Source of the DNA: Chitinophagaceae bacterium
GTDB taxonomy: Bacteria > Bacteroidota > Bacteroidia > Chitinophagales > Chitinophagaceae
Assembly (NCBI GenBank): GCA_947381435.1
Contig: CANCVE010000008.1
Coordinates: forward strand, 1-64,000
Direction: 5' to 3'
Length of the DNA: 64,000 bases
The translations under genes and the position numbers were made by a program. The notes beneath the pieces are model-generated. The model had not been told where the DNA came from. It did not search any database and saw only the letters and a program-made list of their open reading frames with translations. This document shows positions 56,452 through 64,000 of the stretch, one piece after another. Position 1 is the stretch's first letter. The number at the start of each line of letters is the position of its first letter.

Positions 56452-59400
56452 ATGTCAGAACTGAAATTACCGAGGTTATTAGCAGCAGCTAAAGAGTTTA
56501 ATGTGGGACAAGATACCCTTATTGACTTTTTGTCTAAAAAAGGATTCAATAAGGATGAACTTAAGCCTACAGCAAAGCTCACTGAGGCTATGTACCACTC
56601 CTTACAAGCTGAGTTCCAAAATGACAAACAAGCTAAGAATAAAGCAGATTTGGTAGAAATACCAAAAAGTCAACAAAGTGAGCGAAAAAGGCGCGATGAG
56701 GAAGAAATTTCTTTCAAGCGTGAGGAGAAAAAAGCGCAACCCAAAGAAGAGGTTAAACTAGAGCCCCAACCAATTGCTCCAGTTGTTGTAGTAGCTGAAG
56801 TTGTTGTATCTAAGCCAGTACCAGCTTCTCCGCCTGAAGTATTTAAACCTGTAGAGGTGGTAGTTCCAGTTCAGGTACAAATAGGAAAAGCGCCTGAAGT
56901 TTTCACCGAAACAACAGTGAAAGAAATAGTAGCTGAGAATAAAAGTGAAGAAACTAAGGAAAATACAATAACTAAAATTGAAGCCCCAGAACTTGAAGGG
57001 CCAAAAATTCTTACTAAGATAGATTTATCTGCTATTGACTTCTCTACAAGACCAAAAAAAGGTTTTGTAAAAAAAGAGGAAGAAATTAAACCCATAGAAC
57101 CTACACCAATAATTGTAAAAGAAATACCTGTTGCACCTGTAGCAGTCATTGAACCTATTATAATAGTAGAAGAGAAACCAACTACTATCCCAAATGTTAT
57201 TCCAGCATTCAGTGAGCCAGTTTCTAGAAAAGAGGAACACGTTCCTGCTCCAAAGGTTGAACCTGTTGTAGTAGTAGAACAGAAAATAGAAACGCCTGTA
57301 CAAGAGGCTACTCCTGAAAATACAGGTGTAGTCATAGAAAATATTCAAGCAGAAAAAATTACTGGGCCTAAGATTTTAGGTAAAATTGAATTGCCTATCG
57401 ATAGCGATACAAGGCCAAAGCCTAGTAGTGCTGAAGATAGAAAGAAGAGAAAAAGAATTCCTGTTGATAATAGGCGTGTAGGAGGCAATCACAATCATCC
57501 TCCACATGGTCATCAACAACATAATCATCCTACACAAGGTCAACCACATCAAGCTGGTCTGCCTCATCAAGGTTCACAAGGTGGTCAAGGTCGTCCGCCA
57601 GGCAATTTCCAGAACAGAGGTCCACAGCAAGGTGGCGGTGGTTTCAATAGAGACAGAACAGCGGCTCCCTATCAGTCTCCTGCACAAGATGCAAGGGCTA
57701 GTAGACCAGTTGTAGCAGCAAATAATAACAATAACCGTGGCGGTCAAGGCGGTGGAGGATTTAATAGAGATAGGCCTGGTGGCGGCGGATTTAATAGAGC
57801 TGGTGGTGGTAGAACTTCTGGACGCAGAGATGATAATAAGGAAATTGACGCTAAAGAAATTCAAGATAAGATTAAGGAAACCCAAGCCAAACTTGCTGGT
57901 GGTGGCGGTAGAGGTAAGAGTCTGAAAGCTAAATATCGTCGTGCAAAACGTGACGAAGCTGCCGAGGCAATGAACGACATGGATGGTGATGACAACAAAC
58001 TACAAGTTACAGAGTTTGTAACCGTGAGTGAGTTGGCAAATCTAATGGATGTAAGCTTTGCTGAGGTTATTGGCAAGTGTATGGGACTTGGCATTATGGT
58101 GAGCATCAATCAACGTTTGGATGCGGAAGTAATTGAATTGGTTGCAAGCGAATTTGATTATGAAGTCGAATTTATCGGTGTTGATGATATTGACGAAATG
58201 GATGAAGAAGAGGAAGAAGAAGATCTAGCCGAATCTGAAACACGTCCTCCAATAGTTACTATCATGGGACACGTGGATCATGGTAAAACATCCCTATTGG
58301 ATTATATCCGTAGTGCAAATGTGGTAGCTGGTGAAGCGGGTGGTATCACACAGCATATTGGTGCTTATGAGGTTACCCTTCCTAATGGAAAAGCAATTAC
58401 TTTCTTAGATACTCCTGGTCACGAAGCCTTTACTGCCATGCGTGCAAGAGGTGCCAAGATTACAGATATTGCGGTGATTGTAGTTGCTGCGGACGATGCG
58501 GTGATGCCTCAAACAAGAGAAGCTATCAGCCACGCTCAAGCGGCAGGTGTACCAATGATCTTTGCCGTAAATAAAATGGATAAAGACGGTGCTAATCCTC
58601 AAAAGATTTACGAACAATTGGCCGGTATGAACATCTTGGTAGAAAGTTGGGGTGGTAAATATCAAAGTCAGGAGTTGGCAGCTAAGAAGGGATTAAACGT
58701 TGATTTATTATTAGAAAAAATATTATTAGAAGCTGAATTATTAGATGTAAAAGCTAATCCTAAGAGAGATGCTACAGGATCAATCATTGAGGCTTCTTTG
58801 GATAAAGGTCGTGGATTTGTCGCTACCATTCTTGTACAAAATGGAACACTTCGTCAGGGCGACTTGATGGTTTCTGGTCAGTATTTTGGTAGAGTAAAGG
58901 CAATGTTCAATGAGCGTAACCAACGTGTTACCGAGGCACCGCCATCAACACCGGTTGTAATTCTTGGTTTGAATGGTGCGCCTCAAGCGGGTGAGAAATT
59001 TAAGATTTACACCGACGAAAGCGAAGCAAAAGAAATTGCAACTAAGCGTGCTCAAATTTCACGTGAGCAAGGTTTACGTGCAAGGAAACACATTACTTTA
59101 GATGAAATTGGTCGTCGTTTGGCATTGGGCAACTTTAAAGAACTTAATATTATCATCAAGGGCGACGTGGATGGATCTGTTGAGGCATTGAGCGATTCAT
59201 TGCAAAAACTTTCTAACCAAGAAATTGCTATCCGTGTGGTACATAAAGCCGTAGGTCAGATTTCTGAAAGTGATGTATTGTTGGCTGCGGCTTCCGATGC
59301 TATTGTTATCGGGTTCAATGTTCGTCCTTCTTCTCAAGCTAATAAATTAGCAGAAAACGAAGGTGTACAGGTTAAAATGTACTCTATCATCTATACTGCT

Positions 59401-59763
59401 ATCGACGAAATACGTAGTGCGATGGAAGGTATGCTAGAACCTAAGGTTGAAGAAAAAGAAGTTGCAACAGTAGAGGTAAGAGAAGTTTATAAATTTGATA
59501 AGGCAACTGTTGCAGGTTGTTATGTTCAGGAAGGAAAGATTAAACGTGAACATAAAATCCGTGTATTCCGTGATGGCATCCTAGTTTATCCTCGACAAGA
59601 AGGTGGTTTTGCAGAGCTTGGTAGCTTGAAACGCTTTAAAGATGATATGAAGGAAGTAAACAATGGTTACGAGTGCGGATTGACCGTTAAAGGCTTTAGC
59701 GACCTTGCAGTGAATGATAGCATCATTGCTTACGAACAAGAAGAAGTGAAGCGGACTTTGTAG
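56452..59763 (+). CDS. infB: Translation initiation factor IF-2
   Basis: A 1103-residue GTPase that brings fMet-tRNA to the 30S subunit. The N-terminal IF2_N-like helix region ([20 protein letters not shown]) is followed by a very long low-complexity linker (about 90-490): Pro/Val/Glu-rich, then His/Gln (about 345-370), then Gly/Asn/Arg blocks. The GTPase core has G1 GHVDHGKT (606-613), G3 DTPGHEAF and G4 NKMDK. Domains II-IV follow ([37 protein letters not shown]). Total length exceeds E. coli IF-2 (890), mostly in the linker. Confidence 0.96.
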
Positions 59764-59787
59764 AAAAGTTTTAATTTTATAGCTTAC

Positions 59788-59826
59788 AAATAAGGTTCAG
59801 ACATAAAGTTTGAACCTTATTTTTTT
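59788..59826 (+). terminator. Intrinsic terminator of the rimP-nusA-infB operon
   Basis: AAATAAGGTTCA (59788-59799) pairs with TGAACCTTATTT (59811-59822), followed by TTTT. Confidence 0.85.
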
Positions 59827-59983
59827 GCATTCAAAAAGGCCAATACTATCTCCATCATATAACTCAATATCATATTCATCCTCCTCCACCTTGTCCTTTC
59901 CCTACCCTTTTCTCTAGTAAATTTCGCTCATTTCACTTCAAATAAACTACAGACGAGCTTAAAAAATCTTCATCGAAGTGAGT

Positions 59984-60067
59984 GGGAAGCGTATTTACGT
60001 GACAGGGTAGCATACACACGTTCGCGGGAAGCACTTTTGTGTGACAGGGTAGCATACAATTTGACGA
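59984..60067. repeat. Intergenic tandem array E: four units of 21 nt (two of 42)
   Basis: Units start at 59984, 60005, 60026 and 60047, each 21 nt. They alternate GGGAAGC-type (followed by ...TGTGACA) and GGGTAGCATACA-type, which gives a 42-nt super-period. It is the shortest array and lies between infB and the small gene at 60.5 kb. The rest of 59823-60496 has AT-rich sequence, TTTAATCAA words (60225-60260) and the palindrome at 60380. Confidence 0.85.
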
Positions 60068-60379
60068 ATAAAACCCTGCCAACTTTAAATATACTATACC
60101 ACACTTCAAAAAAACACCATCTATTTCACTCATTTTTCCATCTAGGACTTAAAAAAGGATATTTGTTAACGAAAAATTGTCGTGTAAATTCCATTGAAAT
60201 CAAGGTAATCAATCATTAATATCATTCAAATCGTTTAATCAATAATCTATTTCAAACTTTTAATCAATAAAACAATAATTTCAGCTATGCTTGATCTTAG
60301 CATTTGCTGTTAGTACATCTTAAAGTGAAGCGCATCCCGAACAGCCGCGAAGTTGTCGCCGAGATGATTTTATGGTAGA

Positions 60380-60398
60380 GACAAGGCAATGCCTTGTC
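60380..60398. repeat. REP-like palindrome (GACAAGGCA)
   Basis: GACAAGGCA-A-TGCCTTGTC is a perfect 9-bp palindrome within GGTAGAGACAAGGC...CCTTGTCCCTA. Similar GTAGAGAC-type palindromes are widespread extragenic repeats in several phyla; that comparison is from memory. Confidence 0.6.
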
Positions 60399-60496
60399 CC
60401 TATAGCCCGAAAATCTGTGAATGCTTTTCTTTTATATTTGTAAACGAATAAACCTAATTAGTTAACCATGTTTGGGAAAGAAAATAGATTTTAGGG

Positions 60497-60832
60497 ATGG
60501 ATTCAAAACTAATTTATATAGCGTGTAGAAAATTAATTGGAAAAGTTAGTTGGACTAAAATATCAAATGACAGTGAGTGGATTTATTTTGGCGATGGAAA
60601 TAACATCAACAAACTTCTTGTTTATGAAATTATCAATAATCATTTTACTGAATCAGAATTATTAATAGCATGGACAAGGCAAGGTTCTGTACAAGTTAAT
60701 AGAATTGAAATCAATAAGAGTATTGATAATATACTAGGTTATCATGACTTCTCAATTTGGGATAATCATTTAAGAAAAGTAATAGATTTTAACCTTATTG
60801 GAGTATTAAGAATTGGAAAAGTAATAAATTAA
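60497..60832 (+). CDS. Hypothetical protein
   Basis: A 111-residue small protein (MDSKLIYIACRKLIGKVSWT, WIYFGDGNNINKLLVYEI) with no signal peptide or transmembrane segment. I recognise no family. Isolated, AT-rich and flanked by repeats on both sides, it has the look of an accessory gene. Confidence 0.6.
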   Translation: MDSKLIYIACRKLIGKVSWTKISNDSEWIYFGDGNNINKLLVYEIINNHFTESELLIAWTRQGSVQVNRIEINKSIDNILGYHDFSIWDNHLRKVIDFNLIGVLRIGKVIN

Positions 60833-60906
60833 TTCCTCTTTCGTCATTTATCCATCCACTCGCCGTTGTTGTGTCTTTTGACCAACAACAATAAAATAAA
60901 AACCCA

Positions 60907-60925
60907 TCAGGTCTCAAACACCTGA
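60907..60925. repeat. Short palindrome (TCAGGT...ACCTGA)
   Basis: TCAGGT-CTCAAAC-ACCTGA, followed by CAACTTT. A 6-bp stem with a 7-base loop, similar in style to the dispersed word palindromes elsewhere in the window. Confidence 0.45.
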
Positions 60926-60953
60926 CAACTTTATATATGGCGAAATAATTTTT

Positions 60954-60985
60954 TTTGTTCCAATTAAATTCAAATTATATATTTG
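60954..60985 (+). promoter_or_regulatory. Promoter of the asd leader/asd gene
   Basis: TTTG (60954-60957), 20 bases, then TATATTTG (60978-60985) followed by CCCCG. It matches the Bacteroidota -33/-7 consensus. The predicted transcript starts near 60990, almost at the ATG of the leader peptide, about 180 bases before asd. Confidence 0.75.
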
Positions 60986-60992
60986 CCCCGCA

Positions 60993-61052
60993 ATGATAAA
61001 TAGTACAAACACAATAAAGACAATAAAGGTATTCTCGCAAGGGAAGGCTTAG
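60993..61052 (+). CDS. Putative leader peptide of asd
   Basis: A 19-codon frame, MINSTNTIKTIKVFSQGKA, begins a few bases after the predicted transcription start. Residues 5-12 are Thr-Asn-Thr-Ile-Lys-Thr-Ile-Lys, all aspartate-family amino acids made downstream of the Asd step or from aspartate (Thr, Ile, Lys, Asn). The last codons and the stop (61041-61052) overlap the first strand of the attenuator hairpin. This is the layout of a ribosome-mediated attenuator. Confidence 0.65.
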   Translation: MINSTNTIKTIKVFSQGKA

Positions 61053-61113
61053 TCGTTTGTGTACTTAAAATATAACAGCAGCCTTCCCACACTGGGGAGG
61101 CTGTTTTGTTTTT
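61041..61113 (+). promoter_or_regulatory. Transcription attenuator upstream of asd
   Basis: Three complementary segments are present: 1 = GGGAAGGCT (61041-61049), 2 = AGCCTTCCC (61080-61088), 3 = GGGGAGGCTG (61094-61103). Segment 2 can pair fully with 1 (antiterminator) or, as CAGCCTTCCC (61079-61088), with 3 to form a terminator stem with loop ACACT. TTTTGTTTTT follows. Stalling of a ribosome on the Thr/Ile/Lys codons just 5' of segment 1 would change which pairing forms. The precise logic is unproven. Confidence 0.7.
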
Positions 61114-61168
61114 AATCAATCACTAATAAAAAAGCTGTTTGATAGACAGCAAAAAGGAGAAACAGAAA

Positions 61169-62158
61169 ATGAAAGTAGCCGTAGTTGGGGCCACAGGCCT
61201 GGTAGGCACAAAAATGTTGGAAGTGCTTGCCGAAAGAAACTTCCCAGTAACAGAACTAGTACCCGTAGCGTCTGAACGCTCTGTGGGAAAAGAAGTGGAG
61301 TTTAAAGGTAAAAAGTACACAGTGGTAGGATTGCAAGCTGGTATTGATGCTAAACCTGCTGTTGCTATTTTTTCTGCTGGTGGCGGAACTTCTACCGAGT
61401 GGGCACCAAAGTTTGCTGCTGCTGGCATTACTGTTATTGATAATAGTAGCGCTTGGCGTATGGATCCTACCAAGAAATTAGTAGTGCCAGAAGTAAATGC
61501 TGATGTATTGACTGCTGAAGATAAAATTATTGCCAATCCAAACTGTAGCACCATCCAGATGGTGGTTGCTTTGCAGCCTTTGCATACAAAATATAAGATT
61601 AAAAGAGTGGTTGTAAGCACTTACCAAAGTGTTACCGGTACTGGTAAAGCTGCCGTTGATCAATTGTTCAACGAAAGAAAAGGCATTCAAGGCGAAATGG
61701 CTTACAAATATCAAATTGACCTGAATGTTATTCCTCAAATTGATGTGTTCCTAGAAAATGGCTACACCAAAGAGGAAATGAAAATGGTGAAAGAAACAGG
61801 TAAAATCATGCAGGATGATAACATCAAAGTTACTGCTACCACAGTTCGTATTCCTGTTGTAGGCGGACATAGCGAAAGCGTAAATGTAGAGTTTGAAAAT
61901 GAATTTGATTTGGATGAGGTAAAAGCTTTATTAGCTGCCGCTCCAGGAATTGTTTTGCAACAAAATGATGCTGAACAGTTTTATCCAATGCCTTTATGGG
62001 CACACGAAAAGGACGATGTGTTTGTAGGTCGTTTACGTAGGGATGAGTCTCAACCAAAAACATTGAACATGTGGATAGTGAGCGATAACCTTAGGAAGGG
62101 TGCTGCTACTAACGCTATTCAAATTGCAGAATACTTAACAGGCAAGGGTTTGTTGTAA
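61169..62158 (+). CDS. asd: Aspartate-semialdehyde dehydrogenase
   Basis: A 329-residue NADPH-dependent enzyme converting aspartyl phosphate to aspartate semialdehyde, the branch point to Lys, Thr, Met and Ile. The Rossmann motif is VVGATGLVGTKM, the catalytic Cys is Cys126 (NPNCSTIQM) and the His is His234 (GGHSESV). The frame is open from a TTG at 61139, but the ATG at 61169 starts the conserved MKVAVVGATG and has AAAGGAG upstream. An attenuator-type leader precedes it. Confidence 0.96.
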   Translation: MKVAVVGATGLVGTKMLEVLAERNFPVTELVPVASERSVGKEVEFKGKKYTVVGLQAGIDAKPAVAIFSAGGGTSTEWAPKFAAAGITVIDNSSAWRMDPTKKLVVPEVNADVLTAEDKIIANPNCSTIQMVVALQPLHTKYKIKRVVVSTYQSVTGTGKAAVDQLFNERKGIQGEMAYKYQIDLNVIPQIDVFLENGYTKEEMKMVKETGKIMQDDNIKVTATTVRIPVVGGHSESVNVEFENEFDLDEVKALLAAAPGIVLQQNDAEQFYPMPLWAHEKDDVFVGRLRRDESQPKTLNMWIVSDNLRKGAATNAIQIAEYLTGKGLL

Positions 62159-62178
62159 CCCTTGCTTAGTAATAACAA

Positions 62179-62216
62179 AAACGCCCCGAAGCAGTGATGT
62201 TTCGGGGCGTTTGTTT
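62179..62216 (+). terminator. Intrinsic terminator of asd
   Basis: AAACGCCCCGAA (62179-62190) pairs perfectly with TTCGGGGCGTTT (62201-62212), then TGTTTTT. Confidence 0.92.
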
Positions 62217-62331
62217 TTCTGTGTATCAAGATGAAAATACTTAAGCATTTGTTTTTCTAAAATAGAGAGTCTGTAAACAATTAATAACTGTTATAAAAAT
62301 ATAAACTAAACAACTTTGTTTGTTAAACTCC

Positions 62332-62339
62332 TATTTTTG
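62332..62339 (+). promoter_or_regulatory. Candidate -7 box of the DUF4271 gene
   Basis: TATTTTTG fits TAnnTTTG and ends 5 bases before the ATG, again a near-leaderless geometry. No well-spaced -33 TTTG was found. Confidence 0.35.
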
Positions 62340-62344
62340 TTTCG

Positions 62345-63424
62345 ATGCGTTTTTACAGAAAAATATTCACTTTATTTTGCTTCCTAGCATTTGTTGTACA
62401 AGCAAATGCCCAACAAGATTCTGTTACGCAAGACTTAGTTGCAAAAACGTTAGATGCAAAACCCATCATAAAGCCAATAAGAAAACTTGTTACTAAGAAA
62501 GACTCTTCTGCTAGTAGGCTCACACCAAATATCAAAGACACTTTTTCGGCTGCAAATCCAAATACTCTTGCAATTGATTCTGTAAAGCTAAAAGACTCTT
62601 TGTTATTGGTACAGAAAAGAGTAGACTCGATAAGGGTAGATTCCATTAAAAGAAGCATTGCCTTAGCCGCAAATAAAAAAGACACCTCATCGTATGCAAG
62701 CGTATTTGGCGGATCTTATATTCCTGTTGGCTTAAGGGCTGTTGCACTGATGGAAAAAGAGCGGAATGCTGAGGGAAAGGAAATGATGTTTTATATATTA
62801 GTAGGTCTGGTAGCCATCGTAGCACTAACAAGAACAATTTTTCCTCGGTATTTTATTAATATCTTTTCATTACTATTTCAAAAATCATATCGTCAAAAGC
62901 AAGCAATTGAGCAAATTACAAATAGCAAAATATCCTCACTGATATTAAATATAGTTTTCATTGTATGTCTTGCCTTCTATCTAACCATCGTTTTACACAA
63001 TAAAGGCTTCATTCATATAAAATTTTGGCAGGTTTTATTATACGCTTTGGCACTAGTAGGTGGCGTATATTTATTTAAATACACCTTTCTAAACTTCATC
63101 GGTTGGGTGTTTAATGCGCGTGAGGCAATGGAATCTTACACCTTTGTTGTTTTTTTGAGCAATAAAATAACTGCTATATTGCTACTTCCATTTTTATTCA
63201 TATTAACATTTACGGGTGGTGAAATTGCATCAATTGGATTGATGGCAACCTATTGTCTTTTTGGGTTGGTACTACTGTATAGGTATTTTGTTGCAATGAG
63301 TTCATTAAGAAATGAGCTTAGCTTTCACCCCTTGCATTTTTTCCTATACCTTTGCGCCGTTGAGATATTGCCATTGTTACTTATTTTCAAAGCAGTTTTC
63401 AATTTAATAACCACCAGCATATAA
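62345..63424 (+). CDS. DUF4271 domain membrane protein
   Basis: A 359-residue protein with a signal peptide (TLFCFLAFVVQANAQ) and a Ser/Asp/Lys-rich exported stretch (about 25-120). A block of about seven transmembrane helices follows (MFYILVGLVAIVALTRTIFP, FWQVLLYALALVGGVYLF, HFFLYLCAVEILPLLLIF). It matches the Bacteroidota DUF4271 family, usually next to hemD as here. Function unknown. Confidence 0.9.
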   Translation: MRFYRKIFTLFCFLAFVVQANAQQDSVTQDLVAKTLDAKPIIKPIRKLVTKKDSSASRLTPNIKDTFSAANPNTLAIDSVKLKDSLLLVQKRVDSIRVDSIKRSIALAANKKDTSSYASVFGGSYIPVGLRAVALMEKERNAEGKEMMFYILVGLVAIVALTRTIFPRYFINIFSLLFQKSYRQKQAIEQITNSKISSLILNIVFIVCLAFYLTIVLHNKGFIHIKFWQVLLYALALVGGVYLFKYTFLNFIGWVFNAREAMESYTFVVFLSNKITAILLLPFLFILTFTGGEIASIGLMATYCLFGLVLLYRYFVAMSSLRNELSFHPLHFFLYLCAVEILPLLLIFKAVFNLITTSI

Positions 63425-63429
63425 TTTTG
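63422..63429 (+). promoter_or_regulatory. Candidate -7 box of hemD
   Basis: TAATTTTG followed by CAC overlaps the DUF4271 stop codon and ends 20 bases before the hemD ATG. TTTC at 63397-63400 is a near -33 element at 21-base spacing. Another TACCTTTG lies inside DUF4271 at 63347-63354. Confidence 0.4.
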
Positions 63430-63449
63430 CACAACCTTAGATAAGAAGA

Positions 63450-64000
63450 ATGGTTACGAAGGAAGAGAACAAGCCCGTTACTGAAAATATTTCGAAGAAG
63501 ATATTAATATCTCAAGCTAGACCAGATAGCGACAAGTCCCCGTATTTTGAATTGCAACGTAAGTTTCCTGTAGAACTTGTGTTTTATCCATTCATAAAAA
63601 TAGAAGGAATAACGGCCAAAGAATTCAGAAAACAAAAGATAGATTTAGCTAAATACTCCTCAATAATTTTTACTAGTCGCAATGCGATAGATCATTATTT
63701 TAGGATGAATGAAGATATGAAGCGTACAATAGATCAGGAAACTAAGTATTTCTGTACTACTGAATCAGTTGCTTTGTATCTACAAAAGTTTATTCTTTAT
63801 AGAAAAAGAAAAGTTTTCTTTGGTGCTACCGCCAATAATAAAAGCCTGTTTGACGTGATAAACAAACACAAGGACAACCAAAGTTTCTTGTACGTGTGTA
63901 GCGAAAACCAGCAAGACAGTGAAATTGTAACTTGGCTCAAAACAAACAAATGCGACTTTAGCCTTGCATTTATGTATCGTAGTGTAAGTAATGACATTAA
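63450..64000 (+). CDS. hemD: Uroporphyrinogen-III synthase (5' part, runs off the window)
   Basis: The frame opens with ATG at 63450 and has no stop before the window ends (183 codons visible). Segments ISKKILISQARPDSDKSPYF, ELVFYPFIKIEGIT, YSSIIFTSRNAIDHYF, FFGATANNKSLFDVI and NQSFLYVCSENQQDSE follow the two-lobed HemD fold. SQA/RP and FTSRNA are the conserved loops. HemD closes hydroxymethylbilane to uroporphyrinogen III. Its position after DUF4271 is typical for the phylum. Confidence 0.88.
   Translation, partial: MVTKEENKPVTENISKKILISQARPDSDKSPYFELQRKFPVELVFYPFIKIEGITAKEFRKQKIDLAKYSSIIFTSRNAIDHYFRMNEDMKRTIDQETKYFCTTESVALYLQKFILYRKRKVFFGATANNKSLFDVINKHKDNQSFLYVCSENQQDSEIVTWLKTNKCDFSLAFMYRSVSNDI

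Follow-up and report, generated by a model that had tools for sequence, protein, structure and literature searches.

The 64,000-nucleotide stretch analysed here (the window; positions 1 to 64,000 of contig CANCVE010000008.1 from a Chitinophagaceae bacterium) carries, upstream of asd, an element through which this gene is very probably controlled by ribosome-mediated transcription attenuation, in response to the aspartate-family amino acids lysine, threonine, isoleucine and, probably, methionine. The gene encodes aspartate-semialdehyde dehydrogenase, and methionine is the fourth product of the pathway that it serves, besides lysine, threonine and isoleucine. Sequence and comparative data point to this form of control through a promoter, a leader open reading frame (ORF) that appears to be under selection, helices that covary, and codons matched to the pathway that the downstream gene serves. 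From these we infer the start of transcription, translation of the leader, stalling, termination, and which of the coded amino acids matter. A first-pass annotation of this DNA had proposed attenuation by Thr, Ile and Lys, and a comparison of relatives had been set beforehand as its test. That comparison supports the proposal, with Lys, Thr and Ile codons kept under synonymous drift and compensatory changes in the stems, but Lys dominates over the 94 leaders compared and Met is also in excess. The annotation had further described the asd product as the precursor of Thr, Ile and Lys; the identity of the gene agrees with TIGR01296, and methionine had been left out.

All features described below lie on the plus strand. 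A Bacteroidota-type promoter can be read from the sequence, with a −33 element, TTTG, at 60954-60957, located 20 nt 5′ of a −7 box, TATATTTG, at 60978-60985; the available part of PMC7366714 gives the Bacteroidota promoter consensus as TTTG / TAnnTTTG. The annotation had placed a promoter just before a 19-codon frame, and one is indeed present, with the ATG (60993) 7 nt after the −7 box, but it is of the Bacteroidota −33/−7 type and not of the E. coli type. The frame, at 60993-61052, encodes MINSTNTIKTIKVFSQGKA ahead of its stop codon and contains, as had been described, Thr-Asn-Thr-Ile-Lys-Thr-Ile-Lys as residues 5-12, the presumed regulatory codons (61005-61028); in the whole leader, Thr plus Ile number 6 and Lys 3. 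The last three leader codons also form segment 2 (GGGAAGGCT, 61041-61049), the 5′ strand of the antiterminator, and the stop codon follows directly at 61050. Segment 3 (AGCCTTCCC, 61080-61088) is common to antiterminator and terminator, and can pair with GGGAAGGCT or, alternatively, with segment 4 (GGGGAGGCT, 61094-61102). The intrinsic terminator occupies 61077-61113, as a hairpin (61077-61105) and a T-rich tail to 61113. A conserved helix between the codon region and 61056-61065, here called P1, had been overlooked in the annotation. Its 5′ arm, segment 1, lies inside the leader codons at 61002-61010 and is identified by a swap test and by pair counts; its 3′ arm, at 61056-61065, is identified by these and by folding, and the minimum free energy (MFE) fold of the window has P1 in another register, 61009-61014 with 61057-61062. 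In the linker between P1 and segment 3 there is a conserved ACATA/ATATA (61070-61074 in the window), a stretch that the three main helices do not explain.

Folding of the window leader was compared with 200 shuffles of each stretch. For 60989-61112 the folding energy is −36.6 kcal/mol and that of the shuffles −22.4 (sd 3.1), a z score of −4.6. The two mutually exclusive pairings, GGGAAGGCT/AGCCTTCCC and AGCCTTCCC/GGGGAGGCT, the latter with a T-run, which had been predicted, are both recovered, with z −4.2 for the antiterminator stretch (61039-61090) and z −5.4 for the terminator stretch (61076-61112). Segment 2 to the tail (61039-61112) is less striking (z −2.2), and the region from the ATG to segment 3 (60990-61090) reaches a z of only −1.8, with 8 of 200 shuffles equally good.

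Under the proposed mechanism, transcription would begin a few nucleotides 5′ of the ATG, and the nearly leaderless 5′ end would take up a ribosome. With ample charged tRNA for the regulatory codons, the ribosome would reach the stop codon at 61050 and cover segment 2 (61041-61049), leaving segments 3 and 4 to form the terminator and asd to be switched off. A ribosome stalled at 61005-61028 would instead leave segment 2 free to pair with segment 3 while segment 4 is still to be transcribed, and the resulting antiterminator would allow transcription to continue into asd. Stalling at these codons would also open helix P1.

For the comparison with relatives, asd was located in all 13 genus genomes and, of 117 genomes sampled across the family, in 116. 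Adding 80 loci taken from named records gave 207 asd loci, of which 205 had at least 200 nt upstream; these 205 upstream regions comprise three overlapping sets, with 200 distinct sequences. The closest asd among the named records is that of locus L014, with 96% asd identity. A detector that is blind to codons was applied, asking for a terminator, an upstream segment that pairs with the terminator 5′ arm, and an ORF that ends on this segment. A first, looser version gave 137 matches in 207, many of them plainly false, and was tightened before counting. The final pattern is present in 101 of the 205 asd upstream regions (98 of the 101 being distinct) and in none of 2050 dinucleotide shuffles. 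Four matches that lack a Lys/Thr leader (L055, L062, L181, L187) were removed, as were three exact duplicates, leaving 94 leaders, which span more than one family, as L027 belongs to another family and has a leader identical to that of L275. From these, 63 leaders with mutual similarity below 0.80 were used for the swap test and for the analysis of coding drift.

An alignment was made from 70 of 79 reference leaders, with nine left out by choice (L027, L052, L108, L111, L146, L148, L154, L159, L175), and the covariance model R1 was built from it. In sense orientation before asd, the model matches 13 of 13 genus loci (5 in training) and 78 of 116 family loci, of which 51 were in training and 27 were not, two of the 27 (L095 and L105) repeating training rows. 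Three genus members that the detector misses (L003, L009, L012) are found by the model. In one of them, L003, segment 2 reads GGGACGGCT in place of GGGAAGGCT, so that the antiterminator has a mismatch in an otherwise intact element. Among the named-record asd loci the model matches 23 of 80, in Filimonas, Sediminibacterium, Flavihumibacter, Limnovirga, Parafilimonas and Niastella, in one metagenome-assembled genome labelled Sphingobacteriales, in several labelled just Bacteroidetes, and in L027 from another family. Named relatives with the element include Niastella yeongjuensis (L042), Limnovirga soli (L024) and Sediminibacterium roseum (L020). Mucilaginibacter, Pedobacter, Dyadobacter and Flavobacterium loci in the named set have no model match, L038 and L051 having less than 250 nt upstream. 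In the genome of the window, a filtered search with the model gives only one copy of the element at E <= 0.01. The weak model matches L226, L227 and L237 (family) and L287 and L294 (class) are false.

As expected of a leader-peptide attenuator, a short 5′ ORF with codons for the products of the pathway is present; it is conserved, it drifts in the manner of a coding sequence, and it is enriched for Lys, Thr, Ile and Met. In the 63 leaders, 61% of single-base codon differences are synonymous in frame, against 8% and 12.5% in the other frames (ungapped alignment on the core, with an anchor that used peptide likeness and the frame taken from start and stop). The ORF thus appears to be kept under selection at the level of amino acids, and is presumably translated. 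Among relatives, its core is K-H-T-K-R-(T/I)-K-K. Lys codons dominate, the mean per leader being 4.3 Lys, 2.4 Thr and 1.6 Ile (n = 94). Relative to shuffled ORFs, Lys is observed 403 times against 224 expected (1.8-fold), Thr 223 against 152 (1.5-fold), Ile 151 against 122 (1.2-fold) and Met 80 against 24 (3.3-fold), and Asn, Arg and Ser reach 0.7, 0.7 and 0.8 of expectation. Part of the Met excess may represent spare start codons. By sequence comparison, the Thr/Ile-heavy form of the leader is typical of the window's genus.

A serious rival explanation, doubtful but with a real share of the probability, is that sensing is confined to a subset of the enriched codons, such as Lys alone, with Thr, Ile and Met as side effects of A-rich sequence, of P1 and of spare starts. 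Lys is indeed the most uniform signal: it exceeds the leader's own shuffled expectation in all 94 leaders, as Thr does in 77 and Ile in 55, and asd leaders in other families are rich in Lys with little Thr. Against sensing of Lys alone, the sixth core residue, which lies outside P1, is Thr in 52 of the 94 leaders, through all of ACA (19), ACC (15), ACG (10) and ACT (8), and Ile in 21, or one of the two in 73, and the window leader itself has more Thr plus Ile (6) than Lys (3). A different possibility is an arrest peptide, in which the core would act through its amino-acid sequence, within the exit tunnel and in response to some ligand, with the RNA switch following from this and no sensing of charged tRNA. 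The sequence of the core is conserved, down to the His and Arg that are no products of the pathway, as might be expected of such a peptide; but the core lies very close to the N-terminus, Thr, Ile and Asn interchange within it, other families retain the Lys richness and not the core sequence, and leaders before hisG have His instead, all of which makes an arrest peptide unlikely.

Evidence for attenuation also comes from the RNA. Window fold, detector and pair counts agree on a mutually exclusive antiterminator and intrinsic terminator with a U-run. For P1, whose arms were placed without the use of pairing, the swap test on 63 sequences gives −10.8 kcal/mol for a sequence's own arms and −7.6 for swapped arms, a difference equalled in 0 of 5000 permutations, and for 60 of the 63 sequences the pairing with their own 3′ arm is better than the row median. 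Doubly changed pair cells number 52 in the terminator, against 14.1 in shuffles (70-sequence alignment), and 13 in the antiterminator, against 5.7. For P1 and the terminator jointly there are 165 against 50 in a model-fitted alignment, which leans towards the model and includes four antisense matches. An RNAalifold consensus fold of the 70-sequence alignment gave nothing for helices 1:2 and 2:3, because the P1 3′ arm was aligned in two registers; the swap test and pair counts from the model-fitted alignment took its place. In 93 of the 94 leaders, the complete RNA adopts a fold with the terminator. The end of the core is mostly 8-15 nt 5′ of segment 2 (83 of 94 leaders), and therefore a ribosome stalled in the core should leave segment 2 free. 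A ribosome covers about 12 nt on either side, and when terminating at the leader stop it would overlap segment 2.

A number of observations weigh against this reading, or soften the evidence for it. In all 94 leaders the first base of the stop codon lies at −6 to −1 or +6 to +15 relative to where segment 2 starts, a placement that is partly by construction, the detector having required a stop near segment 2. Folds with a masked ribosome are likewise partly built into the masking and are not independent evidence: the antiterminator forms in 0 of 94 with the ribosome at the stop, only since the mask always covers the start of segment 2, and in 94 of 94 with a stalled ribosome, where segment 2 is always left free. 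An attenuator of this kind is expected to have a helix 1:2 that restores termination in an untranslated leader. P1 covaries, but ribosome-free RNA ending at segment 3 has the antiterminator as its MFE structure in 71 of 94 leaders and P1 in 21, and the two might coexist as a pseudoknot; P1 may act as a kinetic competitor, a pause or a pseudoknot. In the swap test, one of five control pairs, which overlaps the upstream codons, reaches z −2.8 (the other four are null), the inner antiterminator helix is weak (z −1.9), and the tests for segments 2:3 and 3:4 are biased by these segments having been picked by pairing. In the first alignment, P1 shifted by −2 columns pairs nearly as well as in register (70.6% vs 72.3%). 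His is over-represented in asd leaders (96 against 62, 1.6-fold), though it is not a product of the pathway. This excess probably comes from a CAU within helix P1, and RNA structure would therefore also shape the leader codons. Finally, 38 of the 116 family asd loci have no model match, as would suit a vestigial or chance leader, with a terminator that merely trims background transcription and an ORF that is unused. Such a vestige is extremely unlikely in the face of 0 of 2050 shuffles, the coding-type drift and the covariation of P1.

The combination of P1 and the conserved linker ACATA, as structure beyond a simple switch, could be read as a sign of ligand binding to the RNA, in the manner of a riboswitch or T-box, with the ORF incidental. 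This is very unlikely. In a locus-level search of window positions 58000-64000, no Rfam family, including the lysine riboswitch and T-box, reaches its gathering score, and 18 related loci give 0 matches at that score; moreover, the synonymous drift of the ORF needs translation for its explanation. Over the element, the Phe_leader family scores 30.3 bits (60948-61109), below its threshold of 55, and no other leader family is seen there. The L-box lysine riboswitch, as covered in the available part of PMC1262725, likewise controls lysine genes at the level of RNA, but it needs no translation, whereas the window locus has a translated-looking ORF and no riboswitch model match.

Transcription of asd under the attenuation reading would begin almost at the leader start codon. 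A full TANNTTYG box is found upstream of 89 of 94 asd leaders and of 8 of 94 shuffles, and among the 93 leaders with at least 5 of 6 matches, 83 have the next in-frame ATG 6-10 nt from the box (ties being given to the box nearest the core). Leaders before hisG have a full box in 26 of 26 cases, 4-18 nt before the ATG and in 20 of them 4-10 nt. Because the promoter motif of Bacteroides thetaiotaomicron is centred at −7 (PMC7366714), the predicted 5′ untranslated region (UTR) of the asd leader would be about 3-7 nt, with the start site placed from the box. In B. thetaiotaomicron, about 3.7% of 5′ UTRs are under 10 nt, according to the available part of the same paper.

Leaders of the same type precede other genes, and the annotation, in treating the layout as a feature of asd, captured only part of its range: it does stand before asd, but hisG has it too, as do dapA, lysA and aspartokinase genes in some genomes. 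Among the 20 strongest model matches in the family that are not at asd, seven precede dapA and are Lys-rich, six precede hisG and are poly-His, lysA accounts for two and genes of aspartokinase type (an aspartokinase or an aminotransferase-aspartokinase pair) for two more, and three are false; representatives of the downstream genes were identified with NCBIfam and Pfam and the others by the resemblance of their first residues. Other family members thus carry Lys-rich leaders with this layout before dapA (L218-L221, L223-L225), lysA (L232, L236) and aspartokinase (L231, L233), with the limit that the lysA, aspartokinase and dapA leaders came from a model trained on Lys-rich leaders.

A recheck with the codon-blind detector took the 30 best-scoring loci among 57 (dapA) and 49 (hisG) matching genomes of 60, the query's own locus included. 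Before hisG, 26 of the 30 best loci have the pattern, against 1 of 600 shuffles; 20 of the 26 are new, and 24 of the 26 leaders contain three His in a row. Poly-His before hisG, found by a detector that is blind to codons, means that leader codons follow the pathway. Before dapA, 4 of the 30 best loci have the pattern, against 0 of 600 shuffles, and all four are Lys-rich; these (L295, L297, L313, L320) are the same as L218, L220, L223 and L224, already known from the model. The asd and hisG leaders differ in Lys and His content, with 0 of 10000 permutations as extreme; this test used a different set of 94 asd leaders, in which the four odd leaders were kept and repeated ORFs removed.

In the genome of the window itself, the upstream region of hisG (L238:266-400, contig C56) contains the leader MNKKAILHHHYYVLPNG, an GGGTAAGC/GCTTAC antiterminator and a terminator. 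On contig C19 (L239) of the same genome, a Thr/Ile-rich ORF, MKGQQNILLFPIAIATIATTTLFTTTL, ends 120 nt before the bifunctional aspartokinase-homoserine dehydrogenase gene (thrA). Such ORFs precede thrA in 15 of 30 loci, where they were picked by Thr plus Ile content, making their enrichment circular. In these 15 loci no T-run terminator was found after the ORF, except a weak one in L268, and the ORFs perhaps represent another form of attenuation. For dapA, the two monofunctional aspartokinases and ilvD of this genome, neither the detector nor inspection by eye gave a leader.

Beyond the family, a class-wide search of 396 sampled genomes with the model (E <= 1e-4) gave 30 matches, 10 of them within the family and 20 outside it. 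The 20 outside loci comprise 15 before asd, one before hisG, one before thrA (leader MYNSTIIITIIITTGRNLAEE), one before a cysteine-synthase-like operon and two false matches. The asd identity of the 15 rests on NCBIfam for seven and on likeness for the others; eight come from one genus, and the detector confirms 11 of 15. Their leaders are Lys-rich and most have an internal Met, for example MKMICSKKCMKKPVR. The asd leaders of other families listed as L275-L286, L289, L290 and L293 are Lys-rich, mostly with internal Met and little Thr, for example MNISCMKRKMKKPLL, and look as if the set of sensed amino acids had shifted between lineages. In another family of the class, L291 has the leader MKNTFTFTCCCCSTRR and a terminator before peroxiredoxin, cysteine-synthase-like and JAB genes, and is a candidate cysteine attenuator by its sequence.

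The principle of the proposed mechanism is classical, and is that of the E. coli thr and trp leaders. The attenuator of the E. coli thr operon has a Thr/Ile leader, and resembles the window element in its leader ORF with product codons, a stop by segment 2, competing antiterminator and terminator, and genes of the aspartate family. Unlike it, the window element controls asd and not thrABC, includes Lys (and Met) codons, and has a Bacteroidota promoter, hardly any 5′ UTR and no Rfam match at gathering score. Some attenuators of Bacteroidetes/Chlorobi are reportedly among the branched-chain, His, Thr, Trp and Phe operons covered by the abstract of Vitreschak 2004, and for this reason the His and Thr leaders described here may already be known. 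Leader-peptide attenuators of Proteobacteria, Actinobacteria and Firmicutes share the same principle in other phyla, in the available parts of PMC1262725 and PMC2965389. The accessible text of the former associates lysine and methionine with riboswitches, and His, Thr and Phe with attenuators; that of the latter (2010) states that, apart from ermC, its own Firmicutes case was the first to be shown beyond Proteobacteria and Actinobacteria, and the terms Bacteroid-, asd, lysine and threonine do not occur in its main text as available. Within the same phylum, long 5′ UTRs of B. thetaiotaomicron contain small ORFs reminiscent of attenuation leader peptides; the part of PMC7366714 consulted names BT_4401, not asd, and gives no pathway, antiterminator or comparison. 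The Corynebacterium ilvB upstream ORF, in the portion of PMC10272879 at hand, is also short, conserved and rich in several related amino acids, in another phylum and pathway. No leader-peptide attenuator for asd or lysine was found in the literature searched, the comparative surveys Vitreschak 2004 and Lopatovskaya 2010 lying outside that search. Attenuators with lysine codons and a nearly leaderless leader peptide are apparently new.

Downstream of the switch, a small hairpin, GCTGTTTGATAGACAGC (61134-61150), lies 5′ of the asd ribosome-binding site (RBS), and may or may not belong to the switch. This pre-RBS hairpin is variable in sequence, and 24 of 82 loci reach a score that is attained by 8% of shuffles. 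The asd gene, at 61169-62158, matches TIGR01296 (428.3 bits; cut-off 324.2) and NF011456 above cut-off, together with PF01118 and PF02774. A strong terminator-like hairpin follows it at 62179-62212, and for this reason asd is probably transcribed alone, as a single-gene transcript. Sub-threshold Rfam His_leader matches at 62135-62296 overlap this 3′ terminator and were rejected.

A broader reading, for which we see the balance as even, is that lysine is sensed through leader peptides in Bacteroidota, with the asd leader integrating the charging of tRNA-Lys, -Thr, -Ile and -Met and the leaders of branch genes restricted to the product of each branch (mostly Lys for dapA and lysA, Thr/Ile for thrA, His for hisG), and that asd and hisG mRNAs are nearly leaderless, their ATG mostly 4-10 nt after the −7 box. 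If true, attenuation would form a widespread regulon here, with a multi-input sensor where the aspartate family branches, and lysine, and probably methionine, would join the amino acids that are read through leader peptides. In our judgement, little is known about the control of amino-acid synthesis in Bacteroidota, where E. coli-type promoters and ribosome-binding sites do not apply. Conserved attenuators whose codons track the pathway directly predict what each gene senses, and the system offers a test of how ribosomes load, on a 5′ end of a few nucleotides, fast enough to control RNA polymerase.

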